46,766 nt of DNA from a virus. The notes below the pieces were generated by a model. It saw nothing but the letters and a program-made list of their open reading frames with translations, made no database searches and had not been told where the DNA came from. The translations under genes and the position numbers were made by a program. How positions within the stretch are numbered: the stretch's first letter is position 1; every line of letters starts with the position of its first letter. The stretch spans positions 1 to 46,766 of the IMG/VR virus record IMGVR_UViG_3300048833_000105, one strand, 5' to 3'. Of the stretch, positions 3,138-46,766 are shown in pieces.

Positions 3138-4501
3138 CGCTTGAACTTTTTCCCTACCAAATCCAAGGCGCACAGTTTCTCGCCGAACGAGCGCGTGCAG
3201 GGTTGTTCGACAGACCAAGATGTGGAAAAACTCCACAGGTTATTCGCGCCCTCGATCTTCGTGGATCGTCACGAGGCATCATTGTCGTGCCCGCAGTGGC
3301 GCGGGAGCAATGGCGCGGCGAGTTCGACAAGTTCGCGTTGCAGCGCAGGCGCATTGTCAAGGGCACATCAATTCACGACTTTGTAGCGTGGGCCAACGGT
3401 CGCTTTGATACGCTGATCACAAGTTACGAGATGATGGTTCACTGGACGCCGTACCTACACGATCGATGCGAAGCTTTGCAGTTTCTCGTCTTTGACGAAG
3501 CCCATTACCTTAAATCAGAAGAGGCCAGGCGCACCAAGACGCTGCTCGGCGAGCACGCGCGGACGAACGGCGGCGCTCTCATGTGGGCCGAGCAGGCGTG
3601 GTGGTTGACGGGGACGCCGGCGCCAAACGATCCGATGGACATTCTGACTTTCCTGCGCTTTCAGCACGTCATGCCGCTTGGAACCGAAGCGTTCCGCCGG
3701 CGCTATTTCACGAGCCGGGCCAAGACGTACGGATCAGCGCAGACAGCCAAGGCCGACATGCTGGCCGAGCTGCGCCTGCTGATCGCCAACAACAGCTTGT
3801 GCCGCACGCTCGATGACACAGGCGCGCAACGGCCGCCACTCCACACCACGACATACCTTGTCGATGGCGATGCGAAGCAGGTGCGCGATGTGCTGCTGCA
3901 ACACCCCGGCCTTGATGACACCATTCGCGATGCGCTGTTGAGTGAGCGCGGCCTGTCGAGCCTCGACGCACCGCACATCGCGACGCTGCGCCGCCTGATC
4001 GGCGAAGCCAAGGCGCCGGCCTATGCCGAGCTGCTTGTCGGCGAACTGCACGCAGGGCTCGACAAGATGGTGGTGTTCGCGCACCACAAGTCGGTGCTGG
4101 AGACGATCCGAGCGGCGTTGGTGAAGCACCACATTCGCTGCGGCATGATCGTCGGCGGCCAACCCGAGAAAGAGCGCGAGGCGGTCAAGCAGGCATTCGA
4201 CCATGATCCGCTGTTTCGCGTCGTGCTGTGCAACATCAGGGCCGCCGGTGTGGCGCTTACCCTGGCCGCATCCGCTGCGCTCGATATGGTTGAAGTGGAT
4301 TGGGCGCCCGCTGCGAATTTCCAAGCCATCATGCGCGTCTACGGCCCTATCCACGTGCAGCGCAGATCGGTGACTGTCCGCTTCATCACCCTCGCCAATA
4401 GTTTCGATACGCAGATCAACGAGATCGTCGCAGAAAAGACGAAAGCGATTGCTGCGCTCGACGCGGTAGGCGGCTCAACCCTGGAGGATATGTTGGCATG
4501 A
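3134..4501 (+). CDS. SNF2-family DNA helicase/ATPase
   Basis: A 455-residue superfamily 2 ATPase of the short phage SNF2 type. Motif Q/I region is LFPYQIQGAQFL, followed by DRPRCGKT (residues 26-33) where most members have a glycine-rich D-x-x-G-x-GKT. DEAH is at 121-124 and LTGTPAPN at 158-165. The C-terminal lobe carries LCNIRAAGVALTLAAS and a degenerate arginine-finger region (FQAIMRVYGPIHVQ). The GTG at 3134 is chosen for the GTGA overlap and the upstream GGAAG. An ATG at 3119 is the alternative. Such proteins accompany DUF2800 and DUF2815 genes in phage replication blocks and probably remodel forks. It ends in TLEDMLA, one of four similar C-terminal tails in this genome. Confidence 0.85.
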   Translation: MTLELFPYQIQGAQFLAERARAGLFDRPRCGKTPQVIRALDLRGSSRGIIVVPAVAREQWRGEFDKFALQRRRIVKGTSIHDFVAWANGRFDTLITSYEMMVHWTPYLHDRCEALQFLVFDEAHYLKSEEARRTKTLLGEHARTNGGALMWAEQAWWLTGTPAPNDPMDILTFLRFQHVMPLGTEAFRRRYFTSRAKTYGSAQTAKADMLAELRLLIANNSLCRTLDDTGAQRPPLHTTTYLVDGDAKQVRDVLLQHPGLDDTIRDALLSERGLSSLDAPHIATLRRLIGEAKAPAYAELLVGELHAGLDKMVVFAHHKSVLETIRAALVKHHIRCGMIVGGQPEKEREAVKQAFDHDPLFRVVLCNIRAAGVALTLAASAALDMVEVDWAPAANFQAIMRVYGPIHVQRRSVTVRFITLANSFDTQINEIVAEKTKAIAALDAVGGSTLEDMLA

Positions 4502-4740
4502 TCGACGCACCGCAACTGCGCTTCCAAGTCCGGTCGTATTTCGACACCGCCGGCGTGCACCACTCGGCACGCATGGTCGCCCTCGTGGACATGACGCCCG
4601 AGCAGCGCACCGACTGCTTGAAGTGGTGCGAAGGCGTCATGGCAGAGCCGTGGTATTCGAAGGCGGATCACACGCTGCAGCAGGGGCTGTGGACGGAGAA
4701 GATCGCCGCGGCGGCCGAATGGTTGAGAGCGCAGCCGTGA
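4498..4740 (+). CDS. small hypothetical protein
   Basis: An 80-residue soluble protein between the helicase and the methyltransferase, coupled to both: ATGA at its start, GTGA at its end. It contains LVDMTPEQRTDCLKWCEGVM and a C-terminal helix (WTEKIAAAAEWLRAQ). I do not recognise a family. Tight coupling to both flanking genes suggests it is expressed in fixed ratio with them and may assist one of them. Tryptophan- and glutamate-rich helices and the lack of a hydrophobic segment indicate a cytoplasmic protein. Confidence 0.7.
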   Translation: MIDAPQLRFQVRSYFDTAGVHHSARMVALVDMTPEQRTDCLKWCEGVMAEPWYSKADHTLQQGLWTEKIAAAAEWLRAQP

Positions 4741-5726
4741 CAGCGTACTACAACGAGAACGAGCCCTATGCCGCAGCGTGGCTGCGCAACCTCATCGCCG
4801 CCGGCCACATCGCGCCAGGGCATGTCGATGAACGGAGCATTGTGGATGTTGCACCCGGCGATCTTGCTGGCTATTCGCAATGCCATTTATTCGCGGGGCT
4901 TGGTGGATGGTCCTACGCGCTGCGTCTCGCGGACTGGCCTGACGACAAGCCTGTGTGGACCGGAAGCTGCCCGTGCCAACCATTCAGTGGCGCAGGACAA
5001 CAGCGCGGCACCGCAGACGATCGGCATCTGTGGCCAGAGTTCCGCCGCTTGGTCGAGCAGCACCGCCCTGCAACTGTCTTTGGAGAGCAAGTTGCAAGCT
5101 CGCTTGGAAGGGCTTGGCTCTCCACTGTTCGCGCTGACTTGGAAGCGTTGGAATATGTCGTGGGGGCCGCAGATTTGTGCGCTGCGAGCGTCGGGGCGCC
5201 TCATATCCGGCAGCGACTTTGGTTCGTGGCCGACAGCCGGCGCCAAGGACGGCGACAAGAGTGTGCGATCCATGACAGGGGCGGAAGCGGAAGCGGCACG
5301 GAAGGGGTGGACGAACGATTTGAACACGGCGGCGCTGTCAGCTTGGCCGACAGTAGCAGCCCGCGATTGGAAGGGCGCGACGCACGATCGATGGGGCGAG
5401 AATGCGCGACCGTTGAACGAGGTGGCGAGATTGGCACCATGGCCGACGCCTGTAGCGTCTCTATCGCCGCCCGCACCTTGGAAAGAGGGTGTGCAGTGGT
5501 GGAAGCAGTCACGCGCAGCACGAAACTGCGAAGCTCTGGCGATGCATGGCGAGACACCGAATGGCTCCCCTGCCGAGACGGAAAAGCCAGGCCAACTCAA
5601 CCCGGCATTCAGCCTTTGGCTCATGGGGTATCCGCCAGAGTGGGAAAGCTGCGCGCCGCCGGCAATGCGATCGTCCCGCAAGTAGCGGCCGAGTTCATCG
5701 CCGCGTATCTGGAGTGCCGCCCGTGA
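4737..5726 (+). CDS. DNA (cytosine-5) methyltransferase
   Basis: A 329-residue Dcm-type enzyme that transfers a methyl group from S-adenosylmethionine to cytosine C5. Motif I is CHLFAGLGGWSYALRLADW, motif IV is GSCPCQPFSGAG with the catalytic Pro-Cys, motif VI is VFGEQV (a Glu-Gln variant of ENV), and motif VIII is APHIRQRLWFV. The C terminus has motif IX/X-like RVGKLRAAGNAIVPQVAAEF. The target-recognition stretch between motifs VIII and IX is low in complexity, with recurring ADS/ADA units. The GTG start overlaps the previous stop (GTGA). No cognate restriction enzyme is visible, so the likely job is protecting phage DNA from host restriction. A second open frame runs through most of the gene (see 4768-5685). 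Confidence 0.85.
   Translation: MTAYYNENEPYAAAWLRNLIAAGHIAPGHVDERSIVDVAPGDLAGYSQCHLFAGLGGWSYALRLADWPDDKPVWTGSCPCQPFSGAGQQRGTADDRHLWPEFRRLVEQHRPATVFGEQVASSLGRAWLSTVRADLEALEYVVGAADLCAASVGAPHIRQRLWFVADSRRQGRRQECAIHDRGGSGSGTEGVDERFEHGGAVSLADSSSPRLEGRDARSMGRECATVERGGEIGTMADACSVSIAARTLERGCAVVEAVTRSTKLRSSGDAWRDTEWLPCRDGKARPTQPGIQPLAHGVSARVGKLRAAGNAIVPQVAAEFIAAYLECRP
4768..5685 (+). other. long alternative open frame inside the methyltransferase gene
   Basis: The +1 frame relative to the methyltransferase stays open for 305 codons and ends 41 bases before the methyltransferase stop. Its product is not random in appearance. It has ordered segments such as GSPLFALTWKRW, repeated SWPT/AWPT/PWPT units, and a C terminus LNPAFSLWLMGYPPEWESC. 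I recall similar conceptual proteins annotated next to or over phage Dcm genes, but could not check. The repeated WPT units arise from the same TGGCCGAC codons that give VADS/LADS/MADA in the methyltransferase frame. There is no clear ribosome-binding site. It could be true overprinting, a remnant of an older fused domain, or a GC-rich artefact. Confidence 0.25.
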
Positions 5727-14381: not shown

Positions 14382-16340
14382 TCAGGAAATGATGGCCCTG
14401 TCTGTCACACGTCGCCAGTTTGTGCCATCCGAAAAAGCTGGCACGGCGCCGCCGCTTTCGTTGGTAATGTAGATCATGAAGTAGGTGAAGCTGGACGCTG
14501 ACGGCACGCCGGCTACCGTGAAGGATGGGAGTTGCAAACCGGGATTGTAGCCGCGGCAACCGTTGATCACGGCGACGTTGCCCGCCGCTGTCACGACCGT
14601 GCCAAAACCATCGGTGACGTTTCCGAGAAGATCAGTACCGCTGATTGTCAAGCTCGTGGCCAAGGAGTTCGACACGTACACGCCGTACCGCTGTGTCGGG
14701 GAGGAAGGACCAGAAGCCGCGCCCGACCCACCGTATCGGCCGCCTGCGATCGTGAGGTTGTTGAACCCGGCGTTGTGTACGCCGTCATAGGTGTTGCCCG
14801 CGGCCTGGCCGTTTCCTGATGCAACGCACCCTGTCATGGTCGCGCTGGAGCCGCCTGATGTGGTCAGCGCATAATACCAACCGTGCTGATTGTTGTTCAC
14901 CGCCAGGCATCCGACGAACAGCACTTGGCCGGTGGTCACAGTGCCGATCACCCACCCTGGGCCGGAGGTGGTCAGCGCAATCTGGCAGTCGATCCACGCG
15001 AGCCTTGTGCCTTGGTCAACAAGCCAGCCCTGGTCATTAAGCTCCAGTTCGAAATTGTGGAACTTCCAGAACGTGGGCGCGCCGACCGCCGTGGTCCGCC
15101 CCTCCATGCGCACGCCCGTAGCCCACGTGGTGATCGCCACCTGCGAGAAGTACATGGTGCCGCCGCCGAAACAGCGCATGCCGTAGCTGTTCGGCACGTT
15201 CGAAAAGCCCACCAGCGACAGGCCGCGGAACCGCAGCAGTTCGCACCCGATGGTCGAGGCGTCGGTAAGCAGCAGCCCGTGGCTGTCTCCCGAGCCATCG
15301 CCGAGGCTGTTGTTGCACCGAACGTCGGTGAAATCGGACTGCTTCACGCCGTCGAGGACAAGAAAATCCCATCCGTTGTTGAACGATACGTGGCTCATTG
15401 TGACCGACGTGGCGGCCGTGATGCGCATCAGGGCGTTCGTCGACGTGATCGTGACTGCGTTCTGATGCCCGATCTGCATGTCGAACACGCTGAAAAAGAA
15501 GAACGCCCCCACCTGAAACATATCGTGGTCGCTGTTGCCAATCACCTGCGAACCGATGGCGTTGTTCTGCCCACGGCCAGTGCCCTGCAGCGTCACGCCA
15601 TGGCGATTGATGATGATCGGCGAGCTGATCTTGTAGCGGCCAGGCGGGAAGTACACGACACCGCCGGTAGCAGACGTGATGCTGTTCTGCGCGGCCTGGA
15701 TTGCCACCGTGTCATCGGTTACGCCGTCGCCAACTGCGCCGTAATCCTTGACGTTCTTCCATTCGGCAAAGCGGTCCTGCAGCGAGCGCGGTGTCGTCGA
15801 GCCCGTGGACAGGATGAAGTCAGACGGGATCGTGCCGCCGTTGAACAGCGGCGGATACAGGACCGGCGAACCGACGCTGTCGAACCCGAGTAGTTGGTTG
15901 GCGCGCTGCGTGGCCGGCGGCAGTGGTGGCCCGATCGTCGCCTCGGTGACAGGCCCAACGATCGCACGATCCACATTCTCGCGAAGCTGCTGAATGGTGA
16001 ACATTTGCGTGTCAAGGCCGCCTTCGACAGCCTCGGGATAGTAGGCACCCTGATTGATCAGGTTCGTGCTCTGCTGTTCGGGCACGTTGCGCAGCAGCGT
16101 CAGGCGCGAGCCAGTCACAATGCCGACGCCGGCGAGCGGGTATGTGAAGGTGCCGCCGGTCGCGACGCCAGCGCCTGTCATTGACCACGCGCTCTGCGCG
16201 ATCAGCGTCGTGACGCCGGCGGCGGTCGTGAGATACAGATCGGCCTGCGACTTTGCCGGGATCTCGAAATTGTAGTTGAACACGGTCTGCACACCGTTGC
16301 CGAGGACCGTGACCTTCGCGGTTTGAGTGCTGACAGTCAT
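14382..16340 (-). CDS. tail fibre with T7-type N terminus and pectate-lyase-type beta-helix
   Basis: A 652-residue receptor-binding protein with AGGTGA before the ATG. Residues 1-130 match the T7 gp17 attachment domain (QTVFNYNFEIPAKSQADLYL, PEQQSTNLINQGAYYPEAVE, QLRENVDRAIVGP), which docks to the tail tube. From about residue 196 (VKDYGAVGDGVTDDTVAIQA) a right-handed beta-helix of the pectate-lyase type begins, common in capsule-degrading depolymerases. The short C-terminal part (about 610-652) looks like a globular tip (YFMIYITNESGGAVPAFSDG). It lies between the internal virion genes and the lysis cassette. Enzymatic activity is plausible but not shown by catalytic motifs. Confidence 0.8.
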   Translation of the reverse strand: MTVSTQTAKVTVLGNGVQTVFNYNFEIPAKSQADLYLTTAAGVTTLIAQSAWSMTGAGVATGGTFTYPLAGVGIVTGSRLTLLRNVPEQQSTNLINQGAYYPEAVEGGLDTQMFTIQQLRENVDRAIVGPVTEATIGPPLPPATQRANQLLGFDSVGSPVLYPPLFNGGTIPSDFILSTGSTTPRSLQDRFAEWKNVKDYGAVGDGVTDDTVAIQAAQNSITSATGGVVYFPPGRYKISSPIIINRHGVTLQGTGRGQNNAIGSQVIGNSDHDMFQVGAFFFFSVFDMQIGHQNAVTITSTNALMRITAATSVTMSHVSFNNGWDFLVLDGVKQSDFTDVRCNNSLGDGSGDSHGLLLTDASTIGCELLRFRGLSLVGFSNVPNSYGMRCFGGGTMYFSQVAITTWATGVRMEGRTTAVGAPTFWKFHNFELELNDQGWLVDQGTRLAWIDCQIALTTSGPGWVIGTVTTGQVLFVGCLAVNNNQHGWYYALTTSGGSSATMTGCVASGNGQAAGNTYDGVHNAGFNNLTIAGGRYGGSGAASGPSSPTQRYGVYVSNSLATSLTISGTDLLGNVTDGFGTVVTAAGNVAVINGCRGYNPGLQLPSFTVAGVPSASSFTYFMIYITNESGGAVPAFSDGTNWRRVTDRAIIS

Positions 16341-43537: not shown

Positions 43538-43574
43538 GTTATGTTATAACATCTCGTAGGTTATGTTATAACGT
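43538..43574. promoter_or_regulatory. twin operator-like palindromes, 22 bp apart
   Basis: GTTATGTTATAAC occurs exactly twice, at 43538-43550 and 43560-43572. Each copy contains a dyad, ATGTTATAACAT (perfect, 43541-43552) and ATGTTATAACGT (near-perfect, 43563-43574). The 22-bp period places both on one face of the helix, as expected for cooperative binding of two repressor dimers. The embedded TATAAC could serve as a -10 box. Confidence 0.65.
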
Positions 43575-43802
43575 GGCTCATCTACTCATCGGGTCGTGGC
43601 CGAGTGAGCATAGGGGCAATGCGGACTATGAGTGCGATTTGCTCGCCTCGAACAAAGTCTATGAGCCCAATTGGTCAGAAAGCGTAGCAATCCGCACAAA
43701 TCTCACTCTCTGCACCACAGCCGCACTATGCGTCCCATGAGCAAAACTCGTGCTTCTAGCCTTATCCATAAATCATCAATATGAGTACCAAGAGTTGAAA
43801 GA

Positions 43803-43827
43803 GGGTGCCGAGTGCCCGCAGGCACCC
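43803..43827. terminator. G-C hairpin, weak terminator candidate
   Basis: GGGTGCC (43803-43809) pairs with GGCACCC (43821-43827), loop 11. On the minus strand it is followed by TCTTTC, on the plus strand by GCTTTCGGCCTTT. Neither is a strong U-tract, so it may be a pause or attenuator hairpin rather than a full terminator. Confidence 0.4.
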
Positions 43828-43869
43828 GCTTTCGGCCTTTGCAATCATAGCAAGATTGCCTTTTTCCTT

Positions 43870-43941
43870 CCCTCTGTCTGTGCCTTTGGTTATGTATTGA
43901 CAGACAGAGGGAGGGGCCCCTACCCCACCCTCTGTCTGTCA
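43870..43941 (+). promoter_or_regulatory. three-copy repeat forming two exclusive hairpins
   Basis: CCCTCTGTCTGT at 43870-43881, its inverse TGACAGACAGAGGG at 43898-43911, and CCCTCTGTCTGTCA at 43928-43941. The middle copy can pair with the first (12 bp, loop 18) or the third (14 bp perfect, loop 16 containing GGGGCCCC). This is the layout of an attenuator or antitermination switch in the leader of the gene at 44020. Confidence 0.65.
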
Positions 43942-44019
43942 TACTACCACTACTCGTCTTTACGACCCTCAACCCTCAGTTACGCGCCCGAGCGCGAGGC
44001 AGCGACAAAGGCAAAGATC

Positions 44020-44781
44020 ATGGAATGGCAAAAACTATCCGACACAGAATGGCTAGGTGAACAAGACGGCGCGGCTGTGCTGTCATCTGCGCATCTGGCC
44101 ATCATGCTTGGTGATTGGAATGGTAAAGGGTACGCGCGATTTCGGCTAAGTGATGGTCGAGCTGTTTGGGTGCGCCAATCTATCTCCGGCAAGCCGGGCT
44201 TATACCCCGCGTTTATAGCGCCGTGGGGTAGTTTGTTCGATTGTGACACCGTGCCAGATGACGACATGGCGCTATCTGTCAAACCGGAGGGATGGCGCAC
44301 AAAACCGCTAGACGGCATTCGAACCTATACAGTGCTCACGGATGCAGAACGCGCAGAGCGTGCAGAGCGAAAGGCAGCCGCAGACGCCGCCAAGGCCGCG
44401 CAGAAGGTTGAGAAGGCCGCAGCGCGTGCGCTGGCAGCCGCAGAGCGCACAGCCGCTACTCGGGAGACACGCAAGCACGCTATCGGCGCATTTGAGGCTG
44501 GCGCGCTTGCCGCAATAGAAGCAACGACCGGAGGCACCACTATGTGTCTCGTTGTCGCGCTTGGCGATGATAGGCTGCCTAGCCTTGTGCGCCTGTCTGA
44601 CACTGGCCTTGGTTTGACGCGAAACAGCCTTAGTGCAGAGTTTCCACAAGGCTACCGCTGGCGCTCTCTGTCAAAATGGCCAAACGGTGCTGACAAGGTT
44701 TGGCGATCCGGCCGCACCACGACGAAAACCTATTGGGCTTTGACGTGTAAGCTGGGCGGCGCTGAGAGCGGAAAAAGATAG
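44020..44781 (+). CDS. hypothetical protein, first gene of the rightward arm
   Basis: A 253-residue protein. The ATG at 44020 is chosen because it starts ordered sequence (EWQKLSDTEWLGEQDGAAVL). The in-frame codons upstream cover the hairpin repeats of the leader. Residues 1-105 look globular and beta-rich (YARFRLSDGRAVWVRQSISG). Residues about 107-160 are a charged Ala/Lys/Glu coiled coil (AERAERKAAADAAKAAQKVE). Residues 165-253 form a second domain (TMCLVVALGDDRLPSLVRLS, TTTKTYWALTCKLGG). Function unknown. As the first early gene, it may act in host takeover. Its codon use is less GC-biased than the replication genes. Confidence 0.65.
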   Translation: MEWQKLSDTEWLGEQDGAAVLSSAHLAIMLGDWNGKGYARFRLSDGRAVWVRQSISGKPGLYPAFIAPWGSLFDCDTVPDDDMALSVKPEGWRTKPLDGIRTYTVLTDAERAERAERKAAADAAKAAQKVEKAAARALAAAERTAATRETRKHAIGAFEAGALAAIEATTGGTTMCLVVALGDDRLPSLVRLSDTGLGLTRNSLSAEFPQGYRWRSLSKWPNGADKVWRSGRTTTKTYWALTCKLGGAESGKR

Positions 44782-44805
44782 GGTTGCGAAAAAGGTTGTT
44801 GACAT

Positions 44806-44865
44806 GGTTGCACCGTGTGGCCTAGGTTTGGGTCATCGAAACCACCAAGCCTAGGATGTGCAACC
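44806..44865 (+). promoter_or_regulatory. long hairpin ending at the next start codon
   Basis: GGTTGCAC (44806-44813) pairs with GTGCAACC (44858-44865). Inside, CCTAGGTTTGG (44821-44831) pairs with CCAAGCCTAGG (44845-44855) with one G-U pair, leaving a 13-base loop. The stem ends at the base before the ATG at 44866 and buries AGGA, the only ribosome-binding candidate. It follows TTGACA at 44799-44804. It could be a translational operator or a double operator in DNA. Confidence 0.65.
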
Positions 44866-45051
44866 ATGCAAGACCACACAGACGATCAGCGCCGCATCAT
44901 GCGGGATTACATCGCTGCGGCCGATGCAGTCGGCGGCCTGATCGCCACGCTTCGCATTCGTGGAGCGGCCGATAAGCACATCGTTGAAGCGGATCGCATT
45001 TTGCAGGCTATTCAAGCCGCGCTTACGAACTTCGCGAACACGGAGGACTGA
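44866..45051 (+). CDS. small hypothetical protein
   Basis: A 61-residue all-helical protein whose start codon immediately follows the long hairpin at 44806-44865. It reads DDQRRIMRDYIAAADAVGGL, then ATLRIRGAADKHIVEADRIL and a final QAIQAALTNF helix, giving a probable helical hairpin. No membrane segment. The ribosome-binding site would be hidden in the hairpin, so expression is likely conditional. No family recognised. The next gene begins 3 bases after its stop. Confidence 0.6.
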   Translation: MQDHTDDQRRIMRDYIAAADAVGGLIATLRIRGAADKHIVEADRILQAIQAALTNFANTED

Positions 45052-45054
45052 CCA

Positions 45055-45477
45055 ATGACCATCAAACCGACCCTTGACGCTGCTACCTACGCGGTAGAGC
45101 GCGCCATCTGTGACAAGGCTAACACCTACTGGGAAGCGCACGCTTCGCACAGCAAGGGCGGAAGCAGCATGAGTGCAGAACTTGCAGCGCATCCCGACTA
45201 TGCGGCGTGCTCCAATGCGATGCGCAGTCGTGTCGAGCAATACGAGTTGCTAACCAATCCGCCGGAACGCTTCACTGCCTACATCGGCCAAAATGGCAAG
45301 CTGACGACAGGGTGCGGCGATGTGCTCGGCGCGTGGATGCTGATGTCGTGTTGGCGCACGCCGCGTAGCTTCGTTTCCTCTCACATGGGTTCGTATCATG
45401 TGATGATGGCAGGCAAAAAGTATCACGGCCGTAGCGGCGGCGAAGGCTTGTGCATCAATCTGCGCGCTGTGCGCTGA
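45055..45477 (+). CDS. hypothetical protein
   Basis: A 140-residue protein with a strong GGAGG ahead of the ATG. The N-terminal half is helical (LDAATYAVERAICDKANTYW, MSAELAAHPDYAACSNAMRS). The C-terminal half has strands and loops, including RFTAYIGQNGKLTTGCGDVL, WMLMSCWRTPRSF and a Gly/Lys-rich end (MMAGKKYHGRSGGEGLCI). It has five cysteines. I do not recognise the fold. It lies in the accessory set between the control region and the replication genes. Confidence 0.6.
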   Translation: MTIKPTLDAATYAVERAICDKANTYWEAHASHSKGGSSMSAELAAHPDYAACSNAMRSRVEQYELLTNPPERFTAYIGQNGKLTTGCGDVLGAWMLMSCWRTPRSFVSSHMGSYHVMMAGKKYHGRSGGEGLCINLRAVR

Positions 45478-45554
45478 TGCTTGATCTTCTGCCCGAGATA
45501 ATCGGCTACTCAATCGCTTTCGCAATCGCCTCGCTGATGTGGGGCATGGTTTAG
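45477..45554 (+). CDS. 25-residue membrane microprotein
   Basis: An open frame of 25 codons starting on the last base of the previous stop (TGATG). Residues about 4-24 (LLPEIIGYSIAFAIASLMWG) are hydrophobic, with one Glu, and form a likely transmembrane helix. The stop lies just before structured element copy 2. Coupling and composition support it, but the length is near the limit of what can be called. Function unknown. Confidence 0.4.
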   Translation: MLDLLPEIIGYSIAFAIASLMWGMV

Positions 45555-45555
45555 A

Positions 45556-45614
45556 GTGACGGTCTATCGCGCAGCGCCTTAGCGTGCTGCGCGCCATGAC
45601 TGCCACACTGGCAG
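45556..45614 (+). promoter_or_regulatory. structured intergenic element, copy 2
   Basis: CGGTC (45560-45564) pairs with GACTG (45598-45602) around an 8-bp hairpin (45568-45575 with 45586-45593). CTGCC (45600-45604) can pair with GGCAG (45610-45614), loop ACACT. It shares GTGAC-R-GTCTATC and TGACTGCCA with copy 1 (7-64). The A-T pair of copy 1 is a G-U pair here, and the inner hairpin is different yet paired. The next gene's GGAGAGGG lies just downstream. Confidence 0.6.
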
Positions 45615-45637
45615 CTCAAACCGGAGAGGGTGGACAG

Positions 45638-46132
45638 ATGACGACACTAACGATTTGGACAATCAAGCGTGACGGCATGCCGTACGTTGCGGGCGTGTGC
45701 GCCACGCGCATGGAGGCCGAAAACGCGGTGCTTGCCGCTATGCACCGCATCACGGGATGTTCGGCTGCTCATGCGTTCAAGCATGAAGGCTATCAGGCGC
45801 ATTACGAAAGCCGCGCCGTAAAACACACCTATGGAGAAGATTGGGAAGCACAGAAGTGGCGCGAGCATTTCGAGAAATACGACAATCTGGCGCATCGGAT
45901 CAGCATTCCGGGTTTGCGGTCCGTTGTGCCAGTGTCGCGGCAAGCCATTGTCGAGGCTTTGGCTAGTGGTGACGAGCACCTAAACACCATCCCGTTGCAG
46001 AAATGGGATATCTGCCACCTCGCGGTGCAGGCCATGCTGCGCGGTACAGGCGTCAAGTCTTGGAGCCTTGGCGATACGGTTTGCGTCGTCAAGCATGTGG
46101 CCAAGCATCACATGGCGCCGCGCCGTATCTGA
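45638..46132 (+). CDS. hypothetical protein
   Basis: A 164-residue protein with GGAGAGGGTGG before the ATG and lying just after structured element copy 2. It begins like a small alpha/beta domain (TLTIWTIKRDGMPYVAGVCA, TRMEAENAVLAAMHRITGCS), continues with an aromatic and charged middle (AVKHTYGEDWEAQKWREHFE), and ends with helices (LQKWDICHLAVQAMLRGTGV) and a basic, His-rich tail. I do not recognise it. It is followed by element copy 3. Confidence 0.6.
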   Translation: MTTLTIWTIKRDGMPYVAGVCATRMEAENAVLAAMHRITGCSAAHAFKHEGYQAHYESRAVKHTYGEDWEAQKWREHFEKYDNLAHRISIPGLRSVVPVSRQAIVEALASGDEHLNTIPLQKWDICHLAVQAMLRGTGVKSWSLGDTVCVVKHVAKHHMAPRRI

Positions 46133-46141
46133 CCTTTTGGC

Positions 46142-46191
46142 GATGCGCGCATCCGTGTGCGCATCATCAAATGGCCAGGCAATCCCGCCTG
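46142..46191 (+). promoter_or_regulatory. structured intergenic element, copy 3 (divergent)
   Basis: A 7-bp hairpin GATGCGC/GCGCATC (46142-46148 with 46159-46165) is followed by a second, CAGGC/GCCTG (46176-46180 with 46187-46191), loop AATCCC. The second loop and the downstream GATGGAGACGATCATGGGC closely match copy 1. The 5' GTCTATC part is missing. It lies between the genes at 45638 and 46210. Confidence 0.5.
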
Positions 46192-46209
46192 TCGATGATG
46201 GAGACGATC

Positions 46210-46766
46210 ATGGGCAAAAAGTACGAGTTCACGGGCGAAACAAAGGGCAGGCTTCGCCAAATCCGTCGCGTTGCAGACGGCACAATAGGAGGCTGGATTG
46301 AGCACGAGCACAATTTGTCGCATGTCGGCGATGCGTGGGTGTCCGACAATGCGCGGGTGTTCGGCGATGCGCGGGTGTCCGGCGATGCGTGGGTGTTCGG
46401 CAATGCGTGGGTGTTCGGCGATGCGCGGGTGTCCGGCGATGCGTGGGTGTTCGGCAATGCGGGGGTGTCCGGCAATGCGCAGGTGTTCGGCAATGCGCGG
46501 GTGTTCGGCAATGCGCGGGTGTTCGGCAATGCGCGGGTGTTCGGCAATGCGCGGGTGTTCGGCGATGCGCAGGTGTTCGGCGACCTGAAAATTGCCACGC
46601 GATCGGACGGCTACACGTTCGCATTGTTTCCATGCACCGACGGCGTGTGGCGCTTGACGGCAGGGTGCCGATATTTCGGCATGGACGAAGCGCGCAAACA
46701 TTGGGCAGAGACGCGCGGCGGAACCGCACTTGGCGATGAGACGATGGACATTCTAGCCTTGTTTGA
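46210..46766 (+). CDS. hexapeptide-repeat protein, continues across the window end
   Basis: The frame is open to the last base (185 codons plus two bases). Joined to base 1 it reads on as Glu-Arg-Gln-stop (stop at 8-10), giving 188 residues. GGAG lies 6 bases before the ATG. After KKYEFTGETKGRLRQIRRVA and GGWIEHEHNLSHV come 14 hexapeptides of the type G-(N/D)-A-(R/W/Q)-V-(F/S), residues 40-123. These should wind a left-handed beta-helix. A conserved C-terminal domain follows: RSDGYTFALFPCTDGVWRLT, AGCRYFGMDEARKHW and ETRGGTALGDETMDIL. Similar phage and prophage proteins exist, with unknown role. The repeats are nearly identical in DNA, so copy number may vary. Confidence 0.75.
   Translation, partial: MGKKYEFTGETKGRLRQIRRVADGTIGGWIEHEHNLSHVGDAWVSDNARVFGDARVSGDAWVFGNAWVFGDARVSGDAWVFGNAGVSGNAQVFGNARVFGNARVFGNARVFGNARVFGDAQVFGDLKIATRSDGYTFALFPCTDGVWRLTAGCRYFGMDEARKHWAETRGGTALGDETMDILALF
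46327..46578 (+). repeat. 14 tandem 18-bp repeats
   Basis: Fourteen units of 18 bp, consensus GG(C)(A/G)ATGCGCGGGTGTTC. The last third contains several identical copies in a row. Each unit encodes one hexapeptide. Near-identity at the DNA level indicates recent expansion by slippage or unequal recombination, and it keeps the frame. Confidence 0.9.

Follow-up and report, generated by a model that had tools for sequence, protein, structure and literature searches.

Why does one short sequence, able to fold back on itself, recur between the small genes of this virus, and does it act at the level of RNA or of DNA? The IMG/VR record IMGVR_UViG_3300048833_000105, analysed here over its full length of 46,766 bases (the window), represents a whole virus, and a preliminary description had singled out a structured RNA element with compensating changes, present in two copies at 7-64 and 45556-45614. 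Both copies are found at these positions, and the spaced pattern GTCTATC-N20-40-TGACTGCCA has exactly two matches in the window as compared to 0.00 expected (100 shuffles). The element is not limited to two copies, however, since a third and more divergent one, missed before, is located at 46129-46178. The three hairpins, all on the plus strand, are named w1 (7-56), w2 (45556-45606), and w3 (46129-46178).

An ORF that begins at 46210 reads in frame across the ends of the record to a TGA at 8-10, and for this reason the record is considered circular, with its two ends contiguous. On the circular map all three hairpins fall within about 1.3 kb, inside a rightward array of small genes that leads to replication genes (resolvase, helicase, methyltransferase, exonuclease, DNA polymerase, and primase). 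Directly before the first small ORF, the plus-strand segment 44797-44868 includes a TTGACA-like hexamer and a strong dyad, CCTAGGTTTGG-N13-CCAAGCCTAGG, kept in a relative; although a strict promoter scan missed it, it looks like an early promoter with an operator and is the probable start of the transcript. Further along the plus strand, a 25-codon ORF, MLDLLPEIIGYSIAFAIASLMWGMV (45477-45554), also kept in the closest relative, ends at a TAG (45552-45554) directly before w2, which has the structure GUGACGGUC-UAU-10 bp hairpin-CCAU-GACUGCCAC. The leader that follows (45607-45637) includes UGGCAG, capable of an alternative pairing, and then the ribosome-binding site GGAGAGG of an ORF of 164 amino acids (45638-46132). 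The stop of this ORF, TGA 46130-46132, is the UGA of w3, whose structure is CUGACCUUUUGGC-10 bp hairpin-AUCAAAUGGCCAG. After w3 comes the 188-amino-acid ORF, which codes for a YdcK-type beta-solenoid (46210-46766, read on over the record end as far as the UGA of w1) and contains 18-nt tandem repeats; in a distant relative a pentapeptide-repeat gene (L174:3515-4261) is likewise found between two hairpins. The stop of the beta-solenoid ORF is the UGA at 8-10 of w1, GUGACAGUC-UAU-10 bp hairpin-UCGU-GACUGCCAU. Its leader (57-81) includes GGCAG at 60-64, with an alternative pairing to CUGCC, and then GGAG before the ATG at 82 of a small ORF (82-372, 96 amino acids, without a Pfam match), for which an alternative in-frame ATG exists at 70.

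Elsewhere in the window, a long non-coding stretch includes GTTATAACAT/ATGTTATAAC palindromes and repeated CCCTCTGTCTGT inverted repeats (43543-43572 and 43866-43941) that are operator- or origin-like in appearance. On the minus strand, directly after the terminase gene, 37747-37826 matches the Rfam suhB/mmgR small RNA model with 49 bits (cut-off 41), a match that the closest relative lacks in its terminase region (L148), and 14382-16340 encodes a Pectate-lyase-like protein that is possibly a depolymerase tail spike.

The preliminary description proposed a search of related phages, and this yielded further copies in which the pairings are kept, which supports the structured RNA element with compensating changes. 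The total stands at 13 hairpins in four tailed phages: three in the window, three in its closest relative, six in a distant relative, and one in EBPR siphovirus 5. The closest relative, IMGVR_UViG_3300048589_000274 (L121), has a DNA polymerase 86% identical and a terminase 94% identical to those of the window; its copies L121:2107 (L121b) and L121:2494 (L121c) are near-identical to w2 and w3, respectively, while L121:1729 (L121a) is quite different. The distant relative, IMGVR_UViG_3300032116_000404 (L174), came to light when the protein family of ORF 45055-45477 was used as a query; it shares matching replication and terminase genes, and its six copies lie inside the first 4.3 kb. The single copy of EBPR siphovirus 5 (1181-1224) is located directly before gp4, a homologue of ORF 45055-45477. 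The pattern TGACNNTC-N26-36-GAGCGCC, run over nine records, gave seven forward matches, six in L174 and one in the closest relative, all on the coding strand, with no reverse and no reversed-control matches; the seven other records, including the window, had none, in the case of the window because its copies have another arm sequence.

Other searches had a narrower yield. A whole-record model search of DNA-polymerase relatives gave nothing credible beyond the closest relative, BLASTN of the elements against phage records gave weak matches or none, and a pattern search of terL relatives gave none. When eight other relatives were scanned for stop-codon hairpins with a similar script, each record gave roughly one solitary hairpin or none at all, and no arrays were seen; across general relatives, TGAC/GCCA hairpins were not clearly above control termini. 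The matches to GTCTATC-N-TGACTGCCA in viral contigs (118 stretches) are attributed to chance, with no comparable hairpin among the matches listed, and the same applies to the genome-contig matches L144 and L145. The element had been called undescribed, and no Rfam model matched the hairpin at gathering score.

All 13 copies consist of a single imperfect hairpin of 44 to 49 nt that starts with UGAC and, in 12 of them, ends with GCCA, the lone exception being GCCC in L174:3443. Read from the base upward, the lower stem opens with a closing pair that varies (G-C, G-U, C-G, or U-A, and a mismatch in one copy) and goes on with U-A, G-C, an A·C mismatch, C-G, and at least four variable pairs; it is topped by an internal loop that differs in size between copies, an apical stem with 8 to 10 pairs, and a short loop. 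The A·C mismatch near the base is invariant across copies. The internal loop, on the other hand, is not constant: it is 3/4 in w1, w2, and L121a, 3/2 or 3/3 in L174, 2/2 in EBPR siphovirus 5, and almost closed in w3. The fold proposed for w1 and w2 holds for both, with two corrections. The apical stem has 10 pairs in each (one of them G-U in w2) rather than 10 and 8, and the closing stem given as CAGTC/GACTG is part of a longer lower stem, (G/C)UGACRGUC with GACUGCCAN, which comprises nine positions including the A·C mismatch. The 50- to 51-nt cores of w1 and w2 fold with -29.9 and -28.6 kcal/mol (z of -5.0 and -4.3, respectively), and the five RNA cores analysed range from -24 to -30 kcal/mol (z of about -4.3 to -5.0), while the corresponding DNA folds are much weaker.

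The sequence of the apical stem differs between copies but its pairing is always kept, and compensatory changes occur in lower and apical stems alike. Even between the near-identical L174:1680 and L174:3443 there is a double change in the apical stem, from C-G to U-A. The four core copies show changes on both sides at 6 of 19 pairs, and 90.9% of their cells pair as compared to 80.1% after shuffling and at most 43% in slid controls. For the nine distinct pairs of lower-stem arms, 82.7% of the cells pair (70.6% shuffled, reached in 0 of 500 shuffles; slid controls at most 40%), with a covariation score of 0.386 against 0.137 shuffled, a value that none of 500 shuffles reaches. The w3-type copies could not be aligned by MAFFT, and for these the covariation count is restricted to the stem arms. 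The shuffles make no correction for relatedness, and arm placement was manual; against either factor carrying the result speak the slid controls and the differences among the apical stems. We have high confidence that the pairing is under selection and that the element is an RNA hairpin at cistron boundaries.

The location of the copies is as regular as their fold. Each of the 13 occupies a junction of small early genes and is oriented with the coding strand, and 22 to 32 nt beyond the hairpin come a ribosome-binding site and a start codon. The preliminary description correctly placed the start of the element at or just after a stop codon, and the relation is in fact sharper: at 9 of 11 loci (w2 and L121b being taken as one, and w3 and L121c as another), with about one third expected from frame, the preceding gene terminates in frame on the UGA of the UGAC box. 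This holds directly for w1, w3, five of the L174 copies, and EBPR siphovirus 5; in L174:1680, where two in-frame stops stand in tandem (TAG TGA), the UGA is the second of them. At the w2/L121b locus a TAG ends 2 nt ahead of the pair that precedes UGAC, and in L121a a TGA ends 5 nt ahead of UGAC. In L121c the upstream ORF ends early at a TAA and the frame is then open up to the hairpin UGA (L121:2440-2497), as if this UGA had been the original stop and the gene had been shortened by a nonsense change. In-frame RUG start codons within the 3' arms of w1, w2, and w3 were considered and attributed to chance; they have no upstream Shine-Dalgarno sequence, and in L121a the codon is out of frame.

It had also been proposed that two folds compete, the 3' arm pairing with a downstream GGCAG. 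When the lower stem is opened, as it would be by a ribosome terminating on the UGA, an alternative hairpin is indeed available in some copies, through CUGCC/GGCAG in the window and GAGC/GCUC in L174. The downstream GGCAG is found only in w1, w2, and L121b, six L174 copies having GAGC/GCUC instead, and downstream of w3, L121a, L121c, and the EBPR siphovirus 5 copy there is no match to the stem arm. The competing fold is thus absent from at least four copies and is not supported as the essential feature. Predicted accessibility of the ribosome-binding site (mean unpaired) is 0.63 with the lower stem free and 0.59 with it occupied, and because this access is practically unchanged the competing fold lacks support as a switch; a ligand- or translation-controlled switch is unlikely on these predictions.

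The closest counterparts in layout are the processing sites of phage T7, whose early message includes five RNase III cut sites (PMC4858673). R0.3, R0.5, R1, R1.1, and R1.3 are, like the elements described here, imperfect hairpins of about 45 to 65 nt located between the genes of an early polycistronic message, and R1.1 is a 60-nt structure with a 4/5-nt asymmetric internal loop located between genes 1.0 and 1.1 (PMC6121014). When we refolded R0.5 and R1.1, each gave a lower stem and an upper stem of 9 to 10 bp separated by an asymmetric internal loop, and R0.5 runs from the UGA of gene 0.4 to a point shortly ahead of the start of gene 0.5. The T7-type layout is also that of the present phages, with a hairpin in the junction, the upstream stop at its 5' edge, and a ribosome-binding site after it, presumably on a single transcript. 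A T7-type signal comprises about 20 bp of imperfect duplex. In w1, w2, L121a, and L121b the geometry consists of a 9-bp lower stem, a 3/4 loop, and a 9- to 10-bp upper stem; other copies have loops of 3/2, 3/3, or 2/2, or nearly closed ones, so that the hairpin is not a strict copy of a T7 site. The two groups have no sequence in common: what recurs among T7 sites is the upper stem together with UUUAU^GA, and what recurs here is the base UGAC/GCCA, with an upper stem that varies; the present hairpins also reach, unlike those of T7, up to six copies per 3.4 kb between tiny genes. We do not claim membership among the T7 RNase III sites; the likeness is one of layout and, as proposed, of working.

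By this analogy, the hairpin can be considered a cistron boundary in an early polycistronic message that is subject to RNase III-type processing as in T7, an explanation to which we give an even chance. Host RNase III would recognise the hairpin in the transcript, cutting or binding it, and the long early RNA would be split into separately stable messages, as happens in T7. No RNase III domain was found in the phages themselves, and therefore it is the host enzyme that would have to act. Both the cut and a single transcript are inferred, as is any role for the A·C mismatch. The base sequence and the A·C mismatch are conserved beyond the need of RNase III recognition alone, which counts against the RNase III reading.

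A hairpin in this location could instead be a passive insulator or 3'-end stabiliser that blocks exonucleases or ribosome read-in without a specific cut. The position in the junctions and the stability of the folds fit this explanation too, there is no T-run and hence no terminator, and a variable internal loop suits a purely mechanical role; it leaves unexplained, however, the invariant A·C mismatch and the fixed UGAC/GCCA in four phages, and we regard it as unlikely. That same conservation, concentrated at the base and including the A·C mismatch in all copies, would be expected if a phage or host RNA-binding protein read the UGAC/GCCA base to bring about antitermination or translational regulation, and the early-operon location is like that of antitermination sites such as put of HK022. 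The put sites are a pair of neighbouring stem-loops immediately downstream of an early promoter, whereas here there is one hairpin per gene junction, not one per promoter. Together with a predicted ribosome-binding-site access that does not depend on the fold and the lack of a candidate protein, this makes a regulatory protein site rather doubtful.

We hold similarly doubtful a proposal that combines protein recognition with gene exchange, namely that the hairpin is a dedicated gene-cassette boundary in which a stop-codon hairpin with UGAC/GCCA and the A·C mismatch is read by a specific protein, divides the message, and fixes the sites of exchange. Gene exchange, which also counts in favour of the cistron-boundary explanation above, is seen when the window is compared with its closest relative. 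A block of homology, 90.9% over 165 bases (45476-45640), includes the 25-codon ORF, w2, and its leader, and reaches the start codon at 45638. Homology is then lost over the 164-amino-acid ORF, in place of which the closest relative has an unrelated ORF of 83 amino acids, exchanged from start codon to stop codon, and it is regained at 46128, with the stop codon at the start of w3 (block 46128-46413). A second replaced stretch, from about 44871 to 45476, has its left edge at the start codon that follows the conserved dyad; in the relative it contains an additional hairpin. The link between hairpins and break points is suggestive for this one pair of genomes and is not a general one. If the cassette-boundary proposal were true, accessory genes would travel as stop-codon-to-stop-codon modules.

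Precise exchange of an ORF between hairpins, arrays of gene plus hairpin in L174, and the fact that the ORF 45055 family is flanked on both sides by hairpins in L174 and EBPR siphovirus 5 could also point to recombination at the DNA level, with a single-stranded DNA hairpin moving gene cassettes in the manner of integron attC sites, which are imperfect hairpins located directly after ORFs, with conserved ends and a variable middle. The elements described here differ from attC in that no integrase was found and there are no R-boxes, the ends are UGAC/GCCA, and the covariation is found at the RNA level. The four records yielded no domain of a tyrosine or serine recombinase, and no match to PF00589; the hairpins fold far more strongly as RNA than as DNA, they are strictly oriented with the coding strand and anchored to stop codons, and the exchange can be explained by ordinary homologous recombination in shared boundaries. 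A DNA recombination site is accordingly improbable.

Readthrough of a leaky stop, suggested by UGAC with a hairpin immediately 3' of the stop codon and by a frame that in L174:3443 is open into the next gene, is highly improbable, as the tandem in-frame stops of L174:1680 largely refute it, L174:927 has a second in-frame stop six codons on, and w2 and L121a follow a different upstream stop. Chance similarity among GC-rich hairpins can be practically discarded: the genome is GC-rich and hairpins with other termini are similarly rare in relatives, but the shuffled expectation for GTCTATC-N20-40-TGACTGCCA, the seven forward and no control matches of TGACNNTC-N26-36-GAGCGCC (all in two genomes), and the covariation controls stand against it.

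Repeated intergenic elements have been described in other phages. The PeSL (promoter early stem-loop) elements of T4-type phages are promoter-terminator composites, according to the passages of PMC4503421 that cite Arbiol 2010 and Comeau 2014, and they resemble the present hairpins, as far as those passages go, in being repeated intergenic stem-loops of an early region in which genes are shuffled as modules. The bounding of shuffled genes is seen here in the replacement of the ORF between w2 and w3, in one genome pair. Unlike PeSL, no sigma-70-like promoters were found by the scan of 43700-46766 and no T-run terminator-like site at the scanned window copies. The SAS/ESAS of Cluster K mycobacteriophages are also repeated imperfect inverted repeats in gaps upstream of non-structural genes (PMC3203893). 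The departures among ESAS repeats do not support RNA pairing, according to the authors (PMC3203893), whereas here RNA pairing is kept; the anchor is in our case the stop codon and not the start codon as in SAS, and the 13-bp SAS, GGGATAGGAGCCC, beside start codons is absent from the examined leaders.

Different junction repeats were also observed in several of the phages compared. In EBPR siphovirus 5 (L171), the region 3530-5329 includes a repeat AGACCTCGCTCTCCC ... GCGCATTCGCGC ... AAAGGA between small early genes, and at 1728-1774 a hairpin that begins at the UGA stop of gp4 has the same layout, with the base UGAA/GUCC instead of UGAC/GCCA. Caulobacter phage CcrRogue (L186) and Brevundimonas phage Kabachok (L188) have, at several junctions, TAAC-N5-GTTAAGAC followed by a CTA-containing box; this repeat is opened by a TAA stop codon and probably represents promoters. 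Erythrobacter phage XM05 (L189) and Sphingobium phage Lacusarx (L185) have long repeated junction cassettes made of a GC hairpin with a T-run, a GTTAAGGTTAAC palindrome, and a CTTGACCGAATC motif, which are PeSL-like terminator-promoter units. Because these phages have their own different elements, repeated junction elements can be seen as a more general trait of phages rich in small genes; the UGAC/GCCA element is set apart from them by its RNA covariation and by the stop codon that it contains.

The existence of a structured RNA family in phage early operons, with at least 13 copies in four phages, no Rfam entry, and no description found, is well supported. If RNase III-type processing is its function, the early message would be divided in a T7-like manner in unrelated phages, by a signal that embeds the stop codon. 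With the same type of boundary at each junction, genes could be swapped between phages with their expression undisturbed, the exchange taking place by ordinary homologous recombination within the shared boundaries. Should the boundary guide exchange, it would provide a testable account of how small accessory genes are swapped without broken expression, and the UGAC/GCCA hairpin would be a sequence handle for such gene arrays in metagenomes.
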